Shown: piece after piece, positions 6,939-37,600 of the stretch
How positions within the stretch are numbered: the first letter of the stretch is position 1
Layout of the letters: the number at the start of each line of letters is the position of its first letter
Assembly (NCBI RefSeq): GCF_022539665.2
Contig: NC_081335.1
Coordinates: 5,890,001-5,954,000 of the forward strand
Reading direction: 5' to 3'
From: Daphnia carinata
Taxonomy: Eukaryota > Arthropoda > Branchiopoda > Diplostraca > Daphniidae
DNA length: 64,000 nucleotides
Program-made: the position numbers and the translations under genes
Notes under the pieces: generated by a model
Database searches by the model: none
The model's input: only the letters and a program-made list of their open reading frames with translations
Told to the model about the DNA's origin: nothing

Positions 6939-8151
6939 TCAGTATTGTGTATGGCCACCTTTTGCATCAATAATGGCCTGGCATCGCCTACGCATACTGT
7001 ATACATATTTGCACAGCGTCTCCCTTGCATAGAATGCCACGCATTGCGTAACACATTGAACAAATTAGCCGCTGATGTTCTGGGGACTTTTTTAGTCATG
7101 GCATCTAGCAGTTCCCAGATCTGTTCGATTGGATTGAGATCTGGGCTTTGCGGTGGCCAGACCATACGTTGCAGGATACCTTAATGGAAAAAGTTCAAGC
7201 TAACATTAATCATTACTTATTCTATCCCAACATGCTTTAACTATACATTGTGTAGTTACAAAACGGAAAACTAACGTAAACAACACCCGTGCAGTTTCAT
7301 ACCTTTGGCTTCTTTTCTCTGCAAATATCCCCTGCATAGTTTTGAAGCGTGTTTCGGATCGTTGCCTTCCTGAAACACGAAACCTTTTCCTATTAAGGAA
7401 AGCCCTGCTGGAATAGCCTGATGGATAAGGATGTTATGATAGACCTTTTTATCCATAATTCCGTCAACCCCTTTTAAGACTGATACGCCATTTGCGCATA
7501 TACCGCCACATACCAAAATAGAGCCACCACTGTGCTTGGCGGTAGGTATAATACAGTGCCTGCTTTAGCGCTCTCCGGCCATCCGTCGAACATAAATCCG
7601 GCTGTTGCTACCGAAAAGGCAAAATTTGCTTTCGTCGGTGAACAAAACCTAATAGGAATTTCATAAATTGGCGTTACAATATATTCTACGTGCTGTTAGT
7701 ACCTTAGCCAATCTGCCCTTGCCCACGAAAGGTGTTGTTGAGCAAAACGCAAACGCTTAGCTATATTAGCCTTGCGAAGCAAAGGCTTTTTACATCCAAC
7801 CCGTCCATTCATCCCAAACTTCTGTAGCAATTGTCGGATGGTTATTTTGGACACTGGATGTTTCCTCCCTGTATTGAATTCTAGCGTGATTTCGGTGACA
7901 GTCTTCCTTTGGTTTCTTCTCGAAAGATACACGATGTATCTTTTGTCACGCTCACTTAATACACTGTATCTTCCACGGCCCGGTCTATTAAAATTGCACT
8001 TTGTTTCTGAAAAGCGGCGGATTGTGTCATGTGCTGTACTGGCACTACAACCAATAACTCTCGCAATGGCTCTAAACGAAGAGCCATTACCACGCATAGT
8101 AATAATTTTTTCCCTTTCACTAACTGACAATTCTTTCCTGCGCGTTGGCAT
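6939..8151 (-). pseudogene. Tc1-family transposase, two probable introns, catalytic Asp lost
   Basis: The ATG at 8151 (MPTRRKEL) opens exon 1 with paired helix-turn-helix DNA-binding domains and a GRPGR-type linker. Exon 1 ends near 7695 and a GT..AG intron of about 55 bases follows. Exon 2 holds FTDESKF, the first catalytic Asp, then GGSI..CGGICANG and FQEGNDPKH, where the second catalytic Asp is replaced by Gly. A second GT..AG intron of about 125 bases follows at about 7180-7305. Exon 3 gives WPPQSPDLNPIEQIW with the catalytic Glu and, after a one-base frameshift, an RRCQAIIDAKGGHT end with a stop at 6939. With this splicing 38 residues separate the second D position from E, which fits DD38E-type relatives of Tc1. 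There is another frameshift in exon 2 near 7560. The introns are inferred from frame continuity and the consensus dinucleotides. Confidence 0.82.
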
Positions 8152-24804: not shown

Positions 24805-25646
24805 CCTCCCATTTAGAATGCTCCCCATCCTTTAATTCTTTCCTTAACATTGTTGTTATGTCTTATCAAATCTCTCTGTTTCCCCATTACTAGCTGGATT
24901 ATATGCAGTCGTTAATCTCTGATCAATTTTTAATTTCTTACAAAAATATCGAAATAATTTGGACGTGAAATTTGTTCCACTATCAGAGAGAATGGCTTTC
25001 GGCATCCCATGACGTACAATAATAGTTTTGAATACACACTCAGCCGCTGTTAGCGCAGTTTGATCTTTCAAAGCAACAGCTTCCACCCATCGGCTAAAAT
25101 AATCGGTAATAACTAAAATATAACTATTTCCATTAGGCGAAACTGGTGTAATAGGCCCTAAAAAATCCATTCCAATTACTTGAAATGGCGCTTTGGCAAC
25201 TTCATGAGGGTGCAAAGGTGCTCTATATGTAGAGGAAGTGTTAGCTATACATATTTCGCAAGCTTGGCAATATTCTTTAATATCGCCCCTCATATTAGGC
25301 CAATAATAATGATTTTTAACTTTTAAATAAGTTTTATAAAAAGCTAAATGTCCTCCCATCGGTGCATCATGTAATTTTTTGAGCACTAGATAGCGGAGCG
25401 ATGCGGGCAATACCAATTGATAATTTATTTCGCTGCGTTTGCTATTTGAGGAAGGCAACTCATGCCGATAAAGAGTACCTTCAATAATTTCAAAATAGCC
25501 GATTTCATTTACCCAATCTGGCCTAGATTGCTGAAAAATTACATCCAGCTCTCCCTTCTCTAAATAATTCTTAATAGCTACACAAAGTTCATCTTCTAAC
25601 TGTTTTTCACAAATCAACTTAATATTTTGTCCTGTTTGAATACTAG
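24805..25646 (-). pseudogene. G2 integrase (zinc-binding and catalytic core)
   Basis: The minus strand shows a zinc-binding HHCC region (LKKLHDAPMGGHLAFYKTY, then C..C at about 25250) and the catalytic core: first Asp in VIGMDFLGPI, second in LSDSGTNFTS, and Glu in NPASNGETERF. One frame is open for 279 codons and a shift near 24865 is needed to go on to the solo LTR junction. Upstream the frame is cut at the G3-derivative LTR (25647). The DD35E spacing is as expected for Gypsy. Confidence 0.83.
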
Positions 25647-25850
25647 TGTAACGAGCCCAAAGGCTATCCAAAGGAAGCCACACCTCATCCATCCCTCAAG
25701 CGTTTCACAAGTGAAAGTGAACGTATCTCCTCCCAATTTACCTTCAATATCTGTATCCTTTAGTAGTATAAATACTGCATGATTGTAACATGTAATTAGG
25801 AGTTGTTTCGGCTTCTCACTGAAAATACACGAGGAATTGGAAACTTTACA
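25647..25850 (+). repeat. G3 derivative 5' LTR
   Basis: 204 bp, TGTAACGAGCCCA...ACTTTACA. It is clearly homologous to 53140-53340 and has the same TATAAAT box (25767-25773) and TGTAACATGTAATT block. Confidence 0.88.
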
Positions 25851-25852
25851 AT

Positions 25853-25870
25853 TGGAGGTCCCAACGAGAC
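25853..25870 (+). other. G3 primer binding site, probably tRNA-Gln
   Basis: TGGAGGTCCCAACGAGAC two bases after the LTR, identical at 53343-53360. The complement of TGGAGGTCCCA.CGAGA fits the 3' end of animal tRNA-Gln as I recall it, with one or two mismatches. Confidence 0.6.
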
Positions 25871-25879
25871 TGAAGCTTC

Positions 25880-27094
25880 ACCAATTAATGAAAATTTGGA
25901 GAGCGGTCTACCGAACAATATTGAAGAATTCAACGACAAAATTAAATACGAATTAAATAAATGCACGACCAATATAAAATCAGCATCGAAACGGAATACG
26001 AGAACAAGCTTGCAAAAGAAATTCGAGACGTTTATTGTCAACTATCAGAAATTAAAAGAACACAAGCTGTTATATTAGCCCAAACCAATGGAATTTTGGC
26101 TGCAGCTGCAGTAGGCTTACCTATGTGCACGAGAGAGACTTACCTACAAGGCTTCGGTCAAGCAATGACACTTCAACAATGCGAAGCCAAAAGGATTTTG
26201 ATATCAGCAAATGAAACAAAATGCGGATTTCAACCGTTCTTTACTTACGAAGGAAAGAATTGTACGATCGGAACAGATGGATGGTCAATTCACCAATATT
26301 CCGATTGTTTTTGGAAAACACCGTTAGTAAATCTAAATGGAAATCCACATACCTGGGAACACAATTCTACAACAGGAGATTGGATACGCCAGAAACCTAC
26401 CGTTCACATGCCTTATATAGACCTCATTACAGAATTTGAAGAACTCCACCTTAATAATTTCAACTTCTCGCTGAAAATTCACCCAGCACACGAGACAATG
26501 GAGATGGAACAATTAAATATCCTGAATGACCTAGTAGGCAGAATGCAAGAGGGAAATTCCAATTCTGTTGAAGATATTGTGATGTCAGAACAACAAGATA
26601 ATCAGATAGATCATATGTTCTCATGGTTCGACAAATTGAAAATAATAGGTCTTTCAGCAATTGGATTTGTGCTATTTCTTGTATGCTTACGGATCTTCAT
26701 ATTTTGCAACCCTATCTCGAAGATTAAAAATCATATCCGCAGAAACCAGAAGCTTACAAGAAAATACGACGATGGCATAGAGGAAGAACACGAACTCGCA
26801 TCAATGCTACCAGCACGAGAAGCAAATTACCATTCAGACATTGTCATCGAACAACCATTCATAAGAACGTCCGCACCCGCACAGCTGTCAACTGAAAGAC
26901 AAGGTCAAACGAGCCCACCACGGCCAAGCGCACCAAATTCATCAATCTACCCATCTATCAAAGAAGCTGACACACCCAAACGATGTACAGGAAAACATAC
27001 CACATGTACTTACGTCGTCGGGTATGGCATGGTCTGGGAAGACCTATGTCGGTGCATACCAGAAACAGACAACAGTAATTCAGCCAGAAAGTAA
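25880..27094 (+). pseudogene. env: G3 env-like glycoprotein, C-terminal half
   Basis: Starts near 25880, just after the leader, in one frame, shifts near 25960, and is then open to 27094. It aligns with the 3' half of the G2 env: cysteine-rich block with GW...YSDCFWKTPLVN and HPAHETMEMEQ, then a membrane segment near 26640-26705 (LSAIGFVLFLVCLRIFIF). The cytoplasmic tail is long, about 125 residues, and contains a PSAP motif (26924-26935) and YPSI. The ectodomain N-terminal half, with signal peptide and CDC motif, is deleted here. It is present in the G3 copy at 60054, where the gap then cuts it. Without a signal peptide this fragment would not make a normal envelope. Confidence 0.75.
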
Positions 27095-28345
27095 AATCCC
27101 CAAGGTTATTGAAAGTGAAAGTCCATTAACAATGATCCGCTAACAAGTTAGGGAATTCCATAATAAAGTAGCACCCTCCCAGCAAATAACGCACTTACCA
27201 ACATTTAAAGCTCCAATAATTAAGTAGATTATCATTTTAAATCCACCAATCAAAAAAAAAAAAAAATAAAAAATTTCCCCATAACTTACCACTATCCAAT
27301 ACTTGAAAAATTTATAGTAAAAACAAACAAAACAACCAAACTCAAATAACAATTTTGTATTTCCGACTAACACAACTAGAAAACTAACAGACTCAGAAAT
27401 CAATAACAAAATCATCAGGAGCATCAGTATCCATATAATTATGCTCGAAAACAAAATGTTTTTCCAAAATTCTAATAACGGCAACATCTCTTCATCGTGC
27501 TCGCGCTGGATAACCTCCTTCACCAACCAAGAGGAAGACGGAGTGGGATGGAAAATGTCAATCCCCGACTCTAACCACCAAAGAAAGCGAGCGAATCTCA
27601 ATGGGTAGCGGACGCGATATCGCGCATACCCAGGATGGTTCCTAGAAGAAATGAGATAATTATCATTATCTTTAAAAAAAAAAAAATCATACAAGTAATA
27701 GTTGTCATTAATCCATGGACGCTCGTTTTTAAAATGCACAAAATCCGCAACAGAAAAGTAAATTGAAACGAGTTAAAAAACATCTGCCGATCATGGGGTC
27801 GAAATCGTTGGAAATGACTCTCAGGAGTAGGATATAGAGCCCTATCAGTACTGCACAACGCAGTTTCGACTTGTCGCCGATACCACGAAAAGTAGTTAAA
27901 ATCGAAAATTGGCATCACAAAACAACGAAAGAAGCGAACAGAACAAAACAGGCAGTGTTCCTTAAAAAAGGACGGTGAATACTAGCTCACGAAGAGGAAT
28001 AAAAAACGAAAGAACCCCTATCAAAGAATGAGAAAAACTAAAAAGGAATACAGAAAATGCGACACAAACAAGATATTCGTCAATTGGCCCTGCGGCTAAT
28101 ATCAGAGCGACACAAGACATAGGTGGAGTATAAAACAGTAGAAGGATCATGACAAACCTGTTCTCAAAATAAGAAAAGAGAAAAGCTAAGAGAAAAAGAA
28201 AAAGCAACGGAAAGATATTTTGGACAAGCAAGATTTTGCAAAAATGAAAAAGAAAACTCAAACTCTTCCCATTGTCTCAACGACATAAATCCAGCAAAGT
28301 TTCACAATTCAGAGTGTGCATCACATACCATTAATTCATTTCAAA
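27095..28345 (+). other. spacer between G3 env and the ankyrin gene, no convincing gene
   Basis: A-rich plus strand. A short plus-strand frame of about 55 codons begins at 27441. A TATAAAAC motif lies at about 28130 and a CAG that could be a splice acceptor at about 28310. Either could serve to express the downstream ankyrin frame, but neither is proven. Long minus-strand frames here look like mirror images of A-rich sequence. Confidence 0.4.
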
Positions 28346-29683
28346 ATGGCTAATAATTTCATCACCAAAGTTTACGACTATAAAGGTACCATCATCCCCA
28401 GGAAAATGGAAAAAGTATACGAACTGATCACCATCGACGACACCGAAAGGGAGGATAGCCAACCAGACTGCAGAGCAAAAGAAAGTGCGAAAAGTACGGA
28501 TGAAAACAAGCAATTAGTGCAATACATGGGATGGAATGGAATAGAAACGGAAAAGAACGACTTTTACGGAAATAAAGAGGAAGTAAATGACAGCAGTGAA
28601 TCAAGTGATGATGAAAACGAGGGATTAATGGCGTATAGTGGAATGGAACCCGATATGGAAAGTGAACACAGTGTTGATTTTATATTAGGATATGACAGTG
28701 ACACCTACCTTCAATGTGGACCTCCCCAAAAAAGGAACAAGCCGGACGACCAACAGAGGGAAACGGAATCATGCAAAAACTGTCGGATGAAAACGATGGC
28801 ATCCATATCAGCAGAGCGAGCAGAAAAAATCCAACTACGAAGACAAGCCATGATAGACTTAGAAAACGGAAAACTTTCATTAAAGATGATGGGAGCTCCA
28901 ATGCAGGTAGTAAGAAGGTGCATCCAAAACAAACTCAAAACGTAACAGGGTTGGCCAAGACAGAAGATGGCCACATTCCTCAATGAAAGATTCAAAGAAG
29001 AACAGACGCTACTCCACACAAGCGTACGAAGATGTAGGTACGACATTACCGACCTTTTACTATCCTACGGAGCGGATCCAGAGATACTCTACCATGGAAA
29101 AACACTTGGCCATATCGCAGCGGCCGAAAATGATCTACTGTTACTTAGGATCCTAAAACATAACAACTGCGAATTTACAGCTCGCAACTACAACGGAGAA
29201 ACTCCCTTAATGTTGGCAATCTCACACAAAAACCAAGAATGTGCAAAGTTAATATGAACACCAACTAACATCAACATTGCAACACCTGATGGCAGAACCG
29301 TTCTGCATTATTTAGCCATATATGGCCTAGAAGATCTGGCCACCCAAATTTGCGCAAAGAGAATCATCAATATCAACCAACAAGACGACTCAGACGATAC
29401 CGCCTTACACGTAGCAACCGGATTCCACCGAATCGACATGATCGAGATTTTACTGCTACAAGCGCAAACCATATTCCAAAAATGGGAACTAAAACATAAC
29501 AGTAATTCCCTGACTAAAATTAAAAGAAAAGAACACCAACAATACAGCCGCGAGGAAAATGAACAAGCTATAATCAACATAGCCGAAATACCAGGCAGAA
29601 AGAAAAGCAAGAATAAGAGACGAAAAGAGAGAAGACAATACGCCAGCAACTTTGTTAAAATTACCTACAATTCTTTTCCATAA
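28346..29683 (+). pseudogene. accessory ankyrin-repeat gene of Gypsy family G3, two in-frame stops
   Basis: ATG at 28346. The whole region to 29683 is one reading frame with in-frame TAA at 28943-28945 and TGA at 29255-29257. The first third (about 200 residues) is acidic and low in hydrophobic residues (SSESSDDENEG near residue 80) with a CKNC pair near 148. About five ankyrin repeats follow at about 28990-29465. Their signatures include TLLHTSVRR..LLLSYGADP, GKTLGHIAAAEND, GETPLMLAISHKNQ, GRTVLHYLAIYG and DTALHVATG. The last ~70 residues are Lys/Arg-rich. This acidic N-terminus plus ankyrin block resembles IkB/Cactus architecture, but no DSGxxS phosphodegron is present. Its place between env and the purine tract/3' LTR makes it retroelement cargo. 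A role in host signalling is inference. Confidence 0.78.
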
Positions 29684-29777: not shown

Positions 29778-29792
29778 GAAGAGGGGAAGGAA
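29778..29792 (+). other. G3 polypurine tract
   Basis: GAAGAGGGGAAGGAA immediately before the TGTAAC start of the 3' LTR at 29793. This is the expected place for plus-strand priming. It also shows that the ankyrin frame lies inside the element. Confidence 0.75.
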
Positions 29793-29865
29793 TGTAACGA
29801 GCTCAAAGGCTATCCAAAGAAAGCCACACCTCATACATCCCTCAAGCGTTTCACAAGTAAAAGTG
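29793..29865 (+). repeat. G3 derivative 3' LTR, truncated
   Basis: 73 bases matching the start of the 5' LTR (TGTAACGAGC.CAAAGGCTATCC to CACAAGT.AAAGTG), then G2 RT sequence in the opposite orientation. The missing ~130 bp means no target duplication can be checked. Confidence 0.82.
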
Positions 29866-30359
29866 CTAAATCGAGAGTAGTGAAAAATTTCTTTCCATAA
29901 TTTCTTTCCATACAGTTTATCTAATGTTTCATCTATTCTTGGCATCGGAAAGGAATCTTTCTTTGTAATACTATTAAATTTTCGATAATCGACGCAAAAT
30001 CTGGCTTCTCCACTTTTCTTCTCTACCAAAACCACAGGTACAGCACATGGCGAATGCGAATACTGAATTATATTCGCATCGAGCATTTCTTGTACCTTAT
30101 CCTCCAATAATTTTCTTTGGTTATTTGTAACTCTGTAAGGACGTTGTCGAATAGGGCTCCGTCCCTGTGTATCAATCGTATGTTTTATAAGATCTGTATT
30201 GCCAAATTCTGAGTCTTTTGACGCGTACAAGTCGTGAAAGCCATGTAATAATCTAGTGAGCTGTGTTTGAAATTCAGGGTTGACTTCCGGAATTACAATA
30301 GGCTCTTGTACTGCATTAGGCCTGTCCTCAACTTTACTTAAAGCAATTTTCCCAATCAC
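29866..30359 (-). pseudogene. pol: G2 reverse transcriptase, N-terminal part
   Basis: The minus strand has the spacer after protease, then RQRPYRVTNNQRKLLEDKV, SPCAVPVVLVEKKSG, RFCVDYRKFNSIT and FPMPRIDETLDKLYG. One frameshift later comes the start of the palm (FFTTLDLA), where the G3 LTR interrupts. The YxDD box and RNase H are absent from the window. Confidence 0.8.
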
Positions 30360-30383
30360 GTGAGTTGTAATTTCAATGCCACC

Positions 30384-31010
30384 TTACTTAGTATCCCTAT
30401 TAGTTTTGACTTGATTTAACGAATGATTTTCAACCAGAATGTTATATGTTCCATCTCCCGATACTTTTCCTACAAACTCCTCAATAAAAACGCCGGCCAG
30501 CAAATCTTCTGCTGGGGTAAATATAAAAACTGTACTAGGCCCAACAAACGGAAATGATCCTTTCATTTGCGCGGCAATTACTATCGACGTCTGACGAGAT
30601 AACGTCATCTTTTTGACCGTCGTAATTGCCATGTCCGGTATGCTAGAAATAGCTGATCCCTGCTTATCTCTTGCTGAATAAATACTCTTGGCTTCTCCAT
30701 CAAGCCGAAATCCGTCTTTCTGGATTGCGTCCCATCCAAGGATACAGTCTTCAGAAACACCATTTGTAACAATAAACTCCTGTTTTAAAATTGACTCTCC
30801 GTATCGTACGGGTAAAGTAACTCTTCCCAGCGTATGTAATTTCTTCTCCCCAACATCGTACAAATCGAAATCAAGCTGACTGCAGATCACTTGACCTTTT
30901 TGGGGTAATTTCCTTAATAACCTTTCGTGAATAATACTCTTAGACGCGCCTGTATCGAATAATGCTTGGAACGGAATCTGAAAATTTTTTAATGGAATTC
31001 TCGGTGTCAA
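30384..31010 (-). pseudogene. G2 aspartic protease region
   Basis: The minus strand shows FQALFDTGASKSII (active-site DTGA) and CILGWDAIQKDGF (the second conserved retropepsin motif) in one open frame of 209 codons. The start is not defined because gag and protease are probably one polyprotein separated by frameshifts. A stop ends it just before the RT segment. Confidence 0.8.
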
Positions 31011-31096
31011 TTCATTCGTTATGGTTGTTAATTTTGCGACTTGTCGGTATTTAAACTGAGGCTCCCTATCAACTGACCCGAAGTTACAGTTGATAC

Positions 31097-33645
31097 TTAT
31101 TGGTTTCCCTGACGTGGGGGAGGACCTGGAATGTTAGGCCTATTCGAGTGTTTTTGCCCTTGGACAGTTGTTTCACTTATGGCCAATTTCCCTACATGAA
31201 TAGAAAATTGGTGGTTGAGCTTGTTCCAAACCTTGCCGTTGATGACAATGACCTGAGAATGACCTCGATATCCACAAAAGTTACAAGTCAGCGGTGACTG
31301 TGTAGGCCTATAGTTAGAACCACTGGCTGGTCTCGAAAAAGGGGGTCTAGGAGCTGTAGGCCTATTCGGAAATTTCGTGAATAGTTGAGCGCCATTGTAA
31401 TTATTACTCTGCGGAGTAGGTCTCCAATTTCTATCCGGGTTACCGTTACTAGCTTGGAATGAAACCTGTTTCTTATATGGTGCACTCGGTGTGTAAGACA
31501 CGCTATCTTTTTTATCAAATTGCAATTGCCTTATCGCTTGCGTTAGCTCGAGAAGAGCTCTCTTAATTTCGTCCTTCTCAGTTTTAGGGTCATTACTTGT
31601 TTACTCCCCTGCCTAATGTTTGCTACAGCATTACTGATAAATTCTTTTTGGTCCAATATCATTTCCTTTAGTTCTTTTAATTCGGCGTGCCTTGGTGTCA
31701 GACGACTCAGTCACTGCCCGAATAAAATCGTGTTTTCCCCTACCTGTTTCCATGGCTTCTAATCGCAATGCATACACTCGCGTTGCAGCAACAAAATCGT
31801 TTAAGTTCTTGAATTCTCTATCTTTAACTTTTGATTGTAATTGGAATCCAATCCCTCTATAAATTTTTTCATAAGAATTATAGCAAAGGATGCTTCTGAA
31901 TAGCCTACAGGATATGCGCGGTTGAAAATCTCCTGCAAACGACTAGCATATTCTATAATCTTTTCTCTGACTTAAGCTTCGCTTTATTAGATTTCTTTTG
32001 ATAAAAATCCGCATTTTCCTTCCCATGAAAATGATCAATCAGATATTCTTTTATCATGCAATAATTGTGAGGATGAACCTTCAAAGTTGTCTGAATGATC
32101 GAAAAAGCCTTATCTACCAATTTAGCCCTCAACATCTGAATAATTTTCCCCTCAGATCCATCTACAATACTTTCGAAAGGTTCGAGCCATGAATCAAAAC
32201 GTACAAGGAGATTTCCAGAAAAAGAAGGAAGTAGCTGTAAACGGGAGAAGATATGTTGGTTATTTTGGAAATCGTTCAAATCGTTGACCGTAGCCGCTCT
32301 TGAAGTAGAAATAGGCTCCGCCATGTTTGAATTGAAACTGGGGAAATTCAAAGTTCTTCCCTGTGGATTCTGAGGGTGTTCTGAAATGCAGTCCGTAATT
32401 GCCTGAGACTCTTTAGCGTTTCTTCCAGTTGGCTGGATTGCTGTGCACGAGGACAGTGAAGAGTGTGTGATTGATTGGAACGTTAGTTTCTTTTGCTTGT
32501 CCGTTTCCTCTTCGGGATGTTCTCCGACAGCGACGATGTTTGTTGAGTTGATGTGCTTGGTTGATGTGTTTGACGCGTTGGTATGAACGACAGCGATTGT
32601 CTCAATTTTATTTCCATTTGTTCGATAATTGGCTCGATGTCCCTCGCCTGCTGTTCGTAGAATGGGTTGTTGGCTTCCGGGAAATTGCTTAGTTTGCCCA
32701 AGAGTAATATGATTTCAGGCTGCAACACCTCCAAATTGGTGATCAATTGTAGTTTCTTTGAGTACGACGCTAGGTTGGCCACCTCTTTCAGGAACGTTCG
32801 TTGTGCCGCCAACAAGAACTCTTCCAGATGAACTGATGGGTCGCTCACCACCGTGATAATCTCCACGTATATCCCGTCCTCGTCTCTGTCGGTGATGTCC
32901 CGTCTCGGAACGAAACCGAACAGTTCCTGCTCTCTTGTTGGAGTGATCTTTTGCAAGTCGGTTATGTTGTAAATTTGCACCTGCAGGCAAGTCAAAACCT
33001 GTCTCGCGTGTTGCGTGAAAATTTCCTTGAGCTCTGCCACTAGTTCCTCTGTCTGCTTCTTCGTTCTCCGATGGTCGGTCTACTGGCTTTCACTTCCAGA
33101 ATGGATATCAAATACCTTAGAAGAGTCTTCGGTTGTTTCCAATCCGTCTGTGTTAGCTGTTCGACGTGGTAATTCCTCTGAATGTCGCGCATCAACTGGA
33201 CAAGTTGATCCCAGATTTTCGGGTCGCTCGATTGGTCCTTTCCCCTCTCCTTGAAGCTCCTGATGGCTAGCAGTAAGAACGGTAGCTGGCTGCTCGGTAG
33301 CTGGAAGAAGTTGTCCTCTTTCTTCTTCACTTCTTGAAATAGATGCTGGAGGTTGACGTTTAGCTGGTCTTTAATTGGTTGTGTTCTTTTTTGAAAAAGT
33401 CTCGAAACGGTGTTCGAAAGAACGTTTGCTGGAGAAAAGGTTGTGGAAACGGTTTTCTTGGGTGAAAGATGGGACACTAATTGGGCAAGGAGGGAAGGAG
33501 AGTTTCTTACAGTCGAAGTGTTAGCTTTACTTTGGGCTCGTGGTTTGCGAACGCTTGAAAGGTCTACTCCCGTTACCAACTCATACGCATAGTTCGATCT
33601 TAACTTTCTTAACTGAGGATTATCTGGAATTGCTCTAGGCTTCAA
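31097..33645 (-). pseudogene. gag: G2 gag, frameshifted
   Basis: Minus-strand segments 33645-33040, about 33060-32483, 32351-31953 and 31525-31097 lie in different frames and together resemble a Gypsy gag: a basic, Ser-rich N-terminus, a helical region (YVEIITVVSDPSVHLEEF), a capsid-like part (LLPSFSGNLLVRFDSWLEPF) and a Pro/Asn-rich tail with a C..C....H knuckle (CNFCGYRGHSQ) whose last Cys is not visible in the same frame. No ATG lies near the start of the first segment. Confidence 0.65.
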
Positions 33646-33879: not shown

Positions 33880-34627
33880 TGAAAAGCATCTTCTTTGTGG
33901 GAAGGATGACTTAACGTTATTAAGATAAATAATGAATAAAAGAACTCGGGAGGCGTTACCACAATGTCGAATATATTTTAGTCTAACGAACCAAGGCCAA
34001 ATGAATAAAGAAGTTTACACAGTTATACGTCATCAATGGGAAACGGAAAAGATAAAATGGAGTCAAACGAAATTAGTCTTACCGTCACATGCAGTGGCGA
34101 AGATGGAATAAAGATGATAAACGTTGTAGGGAAAAAAGATAACAGAGCGCGTCAGTCGCACAAGAAGCGATGAGAAAGCTTTCACAATAGTTTGGAATAA
34201 GATATAAACTGAACTCACTAGACTAGATGAATTGAACAGTACAGTAGAAAAGGTAGAACTAGAACTAACTTTGGGGAACAAAAAGGGCATTCTTTTATAG
34301 GTTTTACATTGTTGAGGGAAACATAGCGCTTCCGACAGATGAACTCCGGATACAAGTTAATGAGTGTCACACGCGTCAACATTTCAGATTCACGCAAATG
34401 TATTGCGCGATGTTCTACACATGAAACACATACCATCAGCAACAAGTAGGATGTAAAGTACAGCATATCAAAATAGAATTCAAGGAAATGACACTTGAAT
34501 AATTATATTTAAAACGTAAACTTTAAAGTTAACGAACAACAAACATAATATATAATTTTAGGATAAAGAAAACAAATGATCAAGATAAAGATGTAATTAA
34601 AAGGTGTATTTTGATGACTTCGTCACA
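33880..34627 (-). repeat. G2 copy 2 5' LTR
   Basis: About 748 bp on the minus strand, starting TGTGACGAAGTCATC at 34627. Homologous to 341-927 over the shared part and to the 24058-24800 solo LTR over its 3' end (aaagcatctt...gtgggaag). The ACGGTAAGAC core, a possible splice donor, is conserved in all three. Confidence 0.8.
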
Positions 34628-37600
34628 ATATCAGTATATTAACATTGAATAAACATATATTGAAACTGTTTGAATAAAGATCAGGAAGCTCATTCTATAT
34701 CACTATATTAACTTTGAATACACGTATATGTCATACTGTTTGAATGTAGATCGTAAAATTCACTCTATCACACTATAATCACATTGAATACACGCATATT
34801 TGATACTGTTTGAATGTACATCATGAAACTCAATGCATCTCACATTGAATACACGTATATTTTATACTGTTTGAATGTAGATCATCAAACTCATTCTATA
34901 TCACTATATTCACATTATACTCGTATATTTGATACTGTTTGAATGTAAATAATCAAATTCATTTGATATTACTATATTCACAATGAATACACGTATATTT
35001 GATGCTGTTTGAATGTAGATCATGAAACTGATTCTATAACACTATATTCACTTTGAATACACGTATATTTGACACTGTTTGAATGTAGATCATGAAACTG
35101 ATTCTATAACACTATATTCACATTAAATACACGTATATTTGATACTGTTTAACGTAGATCATCAAACTCACTGTATAGCACTATATTCACATTGAATACA
35201 TGTATATTATATACTGTTTGAATGTAGATTATCAAACTCATTCTATATCACTATATTCACATTGAATACACGTATATTTGATGCTGTTTGAATGTAGATA
35301 TTGAAACTCACTGTATCACACTGTATTCACATTGAATACACGTATATTTGATACTGTTTGAATGTAGATCATGAAACTGATTCTATAACACTATATTCAC
35401 ATTGAATACACGTATATTTGATAGTGTTTGAATGTAGATCATGAAACTCATTCTTTATCACCATATTCAAATAAAATACACGTATATTTAATACTGTTCG
35501 AATATCGATCTTGAAATTCATTCTGTCACACTATATACACATTGAATAAACGTATAATTTAGTGTTTGAATGTAGATCTTGAAACTTACTGTACCGCACT
35601 ATATTCCCATTAAATACACGTATATTTTACAATGTTTGAATGTAGATCATCAAACTGATTCTATGTCAGTATATTCTTTATGAATACACGTATATTTGAT
35701 ATCGTTTGAATTTAGATCATGAAACTGATTCTATATCACTATATTCACATTGAATACACTTATATTTGATACTGTTTGAATGTAGATATTGAAACTGATT
35801 CTTTAACACTATATTCACATTGCATACACGTGTATTTGATACTGTTTGAATGTAGATATTGAAACGGATTCTATAACACTATATTCACTTTGAATACACG
35901 TATATTTGATGCTGTTTGAATGTAGATATTGAAACTCACTGTATCAAACTATATTCACATTGAATACACGTATATTTGATGCTGTTTGAATATAGATATT
36001 GAAACTGATTCTATAACACTATATTCACATTGAATACACGTATATTTGATGCTGTTTGAATGTAGATCATAAAACTGATTCTATAACACTATATTCACAT
36101 TGAATACACGTATATTTGATGCTGTTTGAATGTAGATATTGAAACTCACTGTATCACACTATATTCACATTGAATACACGTATATTTGATGCTGTTTGAA
36201 TGTAGATATTGAAACTCACTGTATCACACTATATTCACATTGAATACACGTATATTTGATTCTGTTTGAATGTAGATATTGAAACTCACTGTATCACACT
36301 ATATTCACATTGAATACACGTATATTTGATACTGTTTGAATGTACATCATAAAACTGATTCTATAACACTATATTCAAATCGAATACACGTTTATTTGAT
36401 GCTGTTTGAATGTAGATATTGAAACTCACTGTATCACACTATATTCACATTGAATACACGTATATTTGATACTGTTTGAATGTATATTATGAAACTGATT
36501 CTATAAAACTATATTCACATTGAATACACGTATATTTGATGCTGTTTGAATGTAGATATTGAAACTCACTGTATCACATATATTCACATTGAATACACGT
36601 ATATTTGATACTGTTTGAATGTACATCATAAAACTGATTCTATAACACTATATTCAAATTGAATACACGTATATTTCATCCTGTTTGAATGTAGATCATG
36701 AAACTGATTCTAAACCACTACATTCACCTTGAATACACGTATATTTGATGCTGTTTGAATGTACATCATAAAACTGATTCTATAACACTATATTCACATT
36801 GAATACACGTATATTTGATGCTGTTTGAATGTAGATATTGAAACTCACTGTATCACACTATATTCACATTGAATACACGTATATTTGATGCTGTTTGAAT
36901 GTAGATATTGAAACTCACTGTATCACACTATATTCACATTGAATACACGTATATTTGATACTGTTTGAATGTACATCATGAAACTGATTCTATAACACTA
37001 TATTCACATTAAATACACGTATATTTGATACTGTTTGAATGTACATCAAGAAACTGCATTGAATGTAGATATTAAAATTCACTGTATCACACTATATTCA
37101 CATTGAATACACGTATATTTGATGCTGTTTGAATGTAGATATTGAAACTAACTGTATCACACTATATTCGCATTGAATACACGTATATTTGATGCCGTTT
37201 GAATGTAGATATTGAAACTCACTGTATTACACTATATTCACATTGAATACACGTATATTTGATGCTGTTTGAATGTAGATATTGAAATTCACTGTATCAC
37301 ACTATATTCACATTGAATACACATATATTTGATGCTGTTTGAATGTAGATATTGAAACTCACTGTATCACACTATATTCACATTGAATACAAGTATATTT
37401 GATACTGTTTGAATGTACATCATAAAACTGATTCTATAACACTATATTCACATTGAATACACGTATATTTGATGCTGTTTGAATGTGGAGATTGAAACTC
37501 ACTGTATCACACTATATTCACATTGAATACACGTATATTTGATGGTGTTTGAATGTAGATAATGAAACTCACTGTATAACACTATATTCACATTGAATAC

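Follow-up and report, generated by a model that had tools for sequence, protein, structure and literature searches.

An ankyrin-repeat gene as the fourth gene of envelope-bearing Ty3/Gypsy elements of Daphnia

Errantivirus-like Ty3/Gypsy elements (Metaviridae) that carry an envelope gene (env) have long terminal repeats (LTRs), a primer-binding site (PBS), a gag gene with a Ty3_capsid domain and a zinc knuckle, a pol gene encoding protease, reverse transcriptase, RNase H and integrase in that order (PR-RT-RH-IN), env after pol, and a polypurine tract (PPT). The Daphnia elements described here share all of these features, but they have in addition a fourth gene, which encodes an ankyrin-repeat protein and is called ank below. 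Their env also differs in its length of ~1360 amino acids (aa), its ricin-B-type lectin domains, its threonine-rich linker and a match to the Pfam family Baculo_F that stays under the cut-off. We describe one copy of such an element in a 64,000-nt stretch of Daphnia carinata contig NC_081335.1 (the window, whose positions serve as coordinates unless a locus is named), together with other copies found by searches of the 108-Mb assembly (106 contigs). Vertebrate retroviruses are well known for their accessory genes; to our knowledge, invertebrate Gypsy-type elements have furnished few examples.

The closest parallel that we found is gene capture by LTR elements of bdelloid rotifers. Vesta and TelKA are likewise retrovirus-like, reside in a small freshwater invertebrate and carry genes beyond gag-pol, and their captured third open reading frame (ORF3) is a GDSL esterase, a DEDDy exonuclease or a paramyxovirus-like F; the word "ankyrin" occurs 0 times in the main text of that source (PMC5408684). 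In contrast to Vesta and TelKA, the Daphnia gene is added to env and does not replace it. A second likeness is with the Ank or vankyrin genes of polydnaviruses, which are also multi-copy ankyrin genes of a virus-derived element (PMC3359993, PMC3757122). Polydnavirus Ank proteins are reported to bind Rel dimers (PMC3359993) and are described as IkB homologues, and vankyrins reportedly have no sequences for regulated degradation, much as the Daphnia proteins lack the DSGxxS motif. The Daphnia gene differs from these in residing in a Ty3/Gypsy retroelement and in having a long acidic arm. With the ankyrin proteins of poxviruses, mimivirus and other giant viruses, the likeness is the ankyrin fold alone. 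In the open-licence PMC literature we recognised no report of an ankyrin gene in a Gypsy-type element, nor of a retroelement whose env contains a ricin-B lectin.

We are nearly certain that ank is a conserved gene of the env-bearing Ty3/Gypsy elements of Daphnia, where it is the fourth gene in the order gag-pol-env-ank and sits where complex retroviruses keep their accessory genes. In the window copy its frame is broken by stops into three pieces, and a genome search with the third yielded 180 matches, of which the 150 listed merge into at least 97 loci, a lower bound that counts those 150 alone. At least 25 of the 97 have a listed open frame of 440 codons or more, with the listed match crossing a stop in 6 of the 25. 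The same LTR begins 106–226 nt past the end of the ankyrin match in all 46 pieces compared, which cover 37 of the 97 loci. Host ankyrin genes served as a control: the 8 pieces with the strongest genome matches to the Ank_2 model (some of them overlapping) contained 0 LTR matches, their best identity to the element protein was ~31%, and 2 of the 8 had no match to it. Env was detected by tblastn in 13 of the 16 larger ank loci fetched; L042 and L043 had no env match and L051 is cut by the contig start. Conversely, the env piece of the window copy led to 105 env loci after merging (11 of 120 match rows were dropped as second pieces of loci already typed), and 82 of these have an ankyrin match downstream on the same strand, 70 by the ank of the window copy's own lineage (family 1) and 12 more by the protein of a second lineage (11 at 61% identity or more, one at 36%).

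An earlier note on this DNA had placed the ankyrin frame inside the element, after env and before the PPT and 3' LTR, and had proposed that a Gypsy element with env carries it as an accessory gene. Both the window and the other copies bear out this position, and the gene proves to be multi-copy and conserved. The possibility raised there that the frame is host exon sequence picked up at this locus only is ruled out by the presence of at least 97 loci and of the LTR beside 37 out of 37 loci examined.

Sister copies, read as neighbouring stretches, show an LTR, PBS, gag, pol, env, ank and 3' LTR; the gag-pol-env-ank order is thus pieced together from stretches of several copies and not taken from one contiguous reading. 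Their gene content is gag (Ty3_capsid, zinc knuckle), pol (PR, RT, RNase H, IN), an env of 1364 aa and an ank of 413–499 aa, and the Pfam families found are Ty3_capsid, zf-CCHC, RVT_1, RT_RNaseH, rve and Integrase_p58_C. The element therefore has the gag, the PR-RT-RH-IN order and the LTR, PBS and PPT expected of Ty3/Gypsy; the window copy itself lacks gag-pol. In one sister copy the two LTRs are 98.1% identical over 208 bases, and visual inspection of the copy in L057/L041 revealed no target-site duplication. At L043:2107-5155, a short copy of ~3 kb runs from LTR to LTR, keeps ank, has no tblastn env match and is too short for pol; it is a non-autonomous derivative. L050 and L052 (contigs C64 and C69) show zero silent differences in env and ank and may therefore represent a single copy that the assembly contains twice; the counts given here may include doubles of this kind.

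The window copy is the relic of such an element, dead and reduced by an internal deletion. Its features are as follows:

25647-25850, plus strand: 5' LTR (TGTAACGAGC...ACTTTACA); its head is repeated at 29793-29865 and its 3' end is read from the PBS
25853-25869, plus strand: PBS-like site TGGAGGTCCCAACGAGA; L057 has these 17 bases after its 5' LTR
25869-25875, plus strand: internal-deletion junction; the flanks match other copies as separate pieces
25875-27094, plus strand: env remnant, the C-terminal third of the ~1360-aa env including the transmembrane segment; open frame 25961-27091
27095-28345, plus strand: env-ank spacer, presumed untranslated; it diverges more than ank
28346-28945, plus strand: ank piece 1, with the acidic N-terminal arm, the CxNC motif and the start of the helical part; ends in TAA
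28946-29257, plus strand: ank piece 2, ankyrin repeats; ends in TGA; Pfam Ank_2, E 7.5e-12
29258-29683, plus strand: ank piece 3, ankyrin repeats and a basic C-terminal tail; ends in TAA; Ank_2, E 5.7e-8
29778-29792, plus strand: PPT GAAGAGGGGAAGGAA; the same tract precedes the 3' LTR in L041 and L054
29793-29865, plus strand: first 73 bases of the 3' LTR, cut at 29865; 95% identical to 25647-25719

The 5' LTR matches the 3' LTRs of other copies (e.g., 82% identity with L054 and 85% with L039), and a tRNA search of the window gave no primer tRNA for the PBS-like site. At the junction, the bases up to ~25874 and those from ~25869 match other copies solely in separate pieces, and the whole junction occurs in none of the 39 other matches in the genome search, in which 40 of 205 candidates were scored. 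The deletion took gag, pol and most of env, so that the LTR and PBS now abut the last third of env. The earlier description of an env-bearing element at this locus thus holds for the env remnant, whereas gag, pol and most of env are gone and the 3' LTR is truncated. The remnant is 84–92% identical to most genome matches that span all 377 of its residues, and its match to Baculo_F is weak (21.1 bits, under the cut-off of 24.1). In comparisons of the window copy with L041, L050 and L039, the spacer is 58–63% identical and ank 67–81%.

The ank frame starts with the ATG at 28346, is interrupted by a TAA at 28943-28945 and a TGA at 29255-29257 (the two in-frame stops already reported), and ends at 29683. 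Searched separately, pieces 2 and 3 match Ank_2 over the curated cut-off, whereas piece 1 (199 aa) gave no family over cut-off. Piece 1 is acidic, in agreement with the acidic region that had been described ahead of the repeats. The Ank_2 matches rule out a chance open frame as an explanation of ank.

Comparison of the ank genes of L041 and L050 gave dN = 0.097 and dS = 0.573 (nonsynonymous and synonymous divergence), that is, dN/dS = 0.17 with a bootstrap range of 0.12–0.24. The same alignment read in the two wrong frames gave ratios of 1.3 and 1.56, and the changes at codon positions 1, 2 and 3 number 48, 37 and 105. Both parts of the protein are constrained, with dN/dS of 0.21 in the disordered arm and 0.15 in the ankyrin part, compared to 0.07 in the C-terminus of env. 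Sequence identity between the two copies is 73% in the spacer, 84–86% in ank and 87% in env. Taken together, the low dN/dS, the frame control, the distribution over codon positions and the identities indicate that ank was maintained during the divergence of L041 and L050 and was not passively carried; in the two subfamilies tested it evolved under purifying selection. A conserved frame outside gag-pol-env under purifying selection is what is expected of a retroviral accessory gene.

These data bear on the possibility that ank is accidental cargo, i.e., a host exon captured by one copy and spread as a functionless passenger in a single burst. Capture from a host is a common origin of such genes, and one copy without ank exists (L062, see below). 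Against this stand the dN/dS of 0.17, the excess of ank identity over that of the adjacent spacer, and the agreement of the env and ank trees over two lineages and two species that have ank. The cargo explanation is contradicted in the two subfamilies tested, and we consider it very improbable altogether.

The histories of env and ank within family 1 are not identical. Between L041 and L039, dS is 0.36 in env and 2.9 in ank, where silent sites are saturated and the exact value is unreliable; the LTRs of the two copies are 89% identical and their ank genes 65–68%. L039 groups with L041 in the env tree (support 0.941) and with the window copy in the ank tree (support 1.000). Fast protein evolution alone was rejected as an explanation of this gap, as it is the silent sites that are saturated in ank and not in env. 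An exchange of ank together with the spacer between subfamilies is more likely and, with an env-tree support of just 0.941, we conclude that it probably took place.

These differing histories are relevant to a further possibility, namely that ank partners the element's own Env or Gag, for example by binding the long cytoplasmic tail of Env, in the way that ankyrins bind membrane proteins, and aiding trafficking or assembly. It is consistent with this possibility that this env comes with ank in each lineage and each species, and that the transmembrane segment of Env is followed by a long tail (by eye). However, the exchange argues against a tight fit between Env and the ank protein, as does the placement of L039 in the two trees, and we find a partnership of this kind rather unlikely.

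The second lineage has an env of ~70% identity and, in the same place, a 511-aa ankyrin frame (L058) whose product is ~29–36% identical to family-1 ank. A genome search with this protein gave 87 matches, all of which could be assigned to elements, 46 by overlap with family 1 and 41 by identity or adjacent env. After exclusion of the 46 match rows, all confirmed to lie at family-1 ank loci, 25 second-lineage ank loci were counted (one at just 36% identity), 4 of them full-length and free of stops. Accordingly, no closer host gene was seen among the matches (84 of 217 candidates scored).

The same association is found in Daphnia magna, where two deposited gene models, P0124 and P0140, each contain both this env and this ankyrin protein, and the family includes separate ankyrin proteins as well (P0143-P0147, P0149-P0151). 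The env and ank trees contain the same split, with D. carinata C58 and D. magna P0124 on one side and D. carinata L041/L039 and D. magna P0140 on the other (support of at least 0.937 in the env tree and 0.999 in the ank tree). With env and ank trees concordant across species, ank looks old, and the simplest reading indicated by the trees is that the element had it before the divergence of the two lineages and also before the split between D. carinata and D. magna. Horizontal exchange between the two species may also have contributed. Among the best 120 of 286 protein matches to ank, none comes from a contig that equals the metagenomic env contigs in length, which is a weak negative. Several element ank proteins are listed as ordinary proteins in deposited gene models, among them P0001 and P0005 of D. 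carinata and P0143-P0147 of D. magna; the D. carinata labels are "ankyrin repeat domain-containing protein 1-like" and "tankyrase-2-like".

The env of the sister copies occupies L041:1250-5341 and L054:1228-5322. In L054 it matches Pfam Ricin_B_lectin with an E-value of 3.8e-15, and a Pfam scan found no domain other than the ricin-B type, that is, no catalytic toxin part was seen. The layout consists of ricin-B-type (beta-trefoil) lectin domains, a long threonine-rich linker, a long helix and the transmembrane segment, with linker and transmembrane segment recognised by eye. The structural model of Env is of low confidence (mean predicted local distance difference test score, pLDDT, of 50.8), and in Foldseek it matches mainly beta-trefoil lectins and enzymes that bear lectin domains. 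Scores against Baculo_F range over 19.1–21.1 bits, all under the cut-off, and no match was found among PDB sequences. Relatives of this env occur in D. magna, D. sinensis, D. pulex and metagenomes.

The product of ank would be a soluble protein of ~410–510 residues in which an acidic disordered arm and a CxNC motif precede 6–7 ankyrin repeats. In a structure predicted by AlphaFold2 on an alignment of 12 relatives, residues 1-159 are disordered and a solenoid with leading helices spans residues ~170-400, with block-mean pLDDT of 89–97 over residues 231-400. CxNC precedes the solenoid in 10 of the 12 aligned relatives. The N-terminal arm is acidic in 6 of 6 proteins, with acidic to basic residues in a ratio of 41:17 in L041 and 56:18 in C58. 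Basic clusters, which are candidate nuclear signals at differing places among the proteins, include PPKKRSRP in L041, KKSKNKRKKERRR in L039 and RGRKRK in D. magna P0140.

Outside Daphnia, sequence matches are to generic ankyrin proteins (best 120 of 148 in one search and best 120 of 286 in another), IkB is not among the best 60 of 451 matches in a profile search of PDB sequences, and scans of IMG/VR with the ank and env alignments found no relative. Four Wolbachia phage records contain generic ankyrins of 28–30% identity, and ankyrin matches in an NCBIfam scan were far under the cut-off. The best structural matches tie, and include designed ankyrins, FEM1C, GLP/EHMT1, Bcl-3, gankyrin and Notch, with FEM1C, gankyrin, Notch and the designed proteins within 1 Z of Bcl-3. 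In a viral library, structural matches include avipox and giant-virus ankyrin proteins, at 14–26% identity in the best 50 listed. The shared ankyrin fold of these tied matches shows a capacity for binding and not a target.

A strict IkB mimic, i.e., a captured Cactus-like gene that has no degron and holds Rel or Relish inactive, would be a special case of a host-directed function and does not add to its probability. The predicted solenoid has the 6–7 repeats of IkB and Cactus and aligns to Bcl-3 over 209 residues. The DSGxxS motif, which we take to be the IkB phospho-degron, is found in 0 of 6 ank proteins, as the earlier note had observed for the window copy. A specifically IkB/Cactus-like origin, one of the options in that note, found no support, however, because the affinity to Bcl-3 is tied with that to other ankyrins and the sequence matches among those listed are generic. 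With the degron absent and the structural affinity tied, we do not file ank under IkB, although it may still work like IkB and may have a Cactus/IkB origin; as a strict mimic we regard it as quite improbable.

These results lead us to favor, as the overall best explanation and with a probability of roughly 0.55, a conserved fourth gene whose product acts as a host-directed adaptor. Transcription would be driven by the LTR, with ank probably expressed from a spliced or separately initiated mRNA. The solenoid would grip a host protein, the long acidic disordered arm may carry a second activity, and the adaptor could in this way block or divert a host defence or regulatory factor, allowing the element to replicate. 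An NF-kB/Relish-type factor may be the target, as one candidate of several. We rank the host-directed adaptor first because other viruses use ankyrin proteins on host defence and because the exchange and divergence of ank fit a changing pressure. Taken by itself, the host-directed role is in our view the most likely function of ank, which we propose tentatively and at somewhat less than even odds.

It is also conceivable that ank is a self-directed nuclear regulator, in which the arm serves as an activation region, the basic clusters provide nuclear entry and the protein controls LTR transcription or RNA export, resembling Tat, Rev or Tax in position and not in sequence. The acidic arm present in all six proteins, the basic clusters in L041, L039 and D. 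magna P0140, and the location of ank directly ahead of the 3' LTR are consistent with such a role. On the other hand, the position of the basic clusters is not conserved (L041 has none at the C-terminus), and acidic disordered arms are common among proteins. We consider self-directed regulation unlikely.

Several observations weigh against a conserved, host-directed fourth gene. The ankyrin fold binds almost anything and does not discriminate between host-directed and self-directed functions; the dN/dS estimates are based on few subfamilies and are uninformative within the youngest copies; and the D. pulex and metagenome relatives are known from env alone. Moreover, 23 of the 105 env loci have no ank match. 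Three of the 23 were examined: one breaks 377 nt after env, with an integrase-like frame of another element further on (by eye), and a second breaks inside ank, at a satellite. The third, L062 (C7:1989000-1991000), has env, spacer and LTR but no ank stretch, which makes ank dispensable at least for the presence of a copy in the genome. Many of the others match env only in part or contain stops. The earlier note had looked to full-length copies lacking the frame as evidence against its proposal; the outcome largely favors the proposal, with ank at 82 of 105 env loci, but L062 is a copy with env and LTR that lacks it. Since both lineages have ank, we take L062 to have lost it by deletion, but this copy may instead never have carried ank.

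The surroundings of the window copy are themselves of retroelement origin. A Gypsy element on the minus strand flanks it on both sides (24856-25646 to the left and 29866-31133 to the right), with an integrase over cut-off on the left and, on the right, a protease-like match under cut-off and the start of RT (by eye). Most of RT and RNase H appears by eye to be missing from this split element at the break, which suggests that the window insertion was associated with a target deletion. A satellite with a 70-base period lies near the window copy (34530-35997) and adjoins L047, L050 and L053 from ~7700-7850, which suggests that copies collect in or next to satellite arrays.

A broader scenario, which we offer as a possibility that falls well short of probable, is that of a Daphnia endogenous-retrovirus lineage with a complex-retrovirus architecture, gag-pol-env(lectin)-ank, in which ank is a host antagonist whose fast divergence and exchange between subfamilies record an arms race with crustacean defence, possibly with Rel/Imd signalling or small-RNA silencing. 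Element genes catalogued as ordinary proteins can mislead studies of host gene families. Daphnia is a model organism for which genetics, clonal lines and sequenced relatives are available, and because ank is common to two lineages and two host species and is under selection, its function is testable there.
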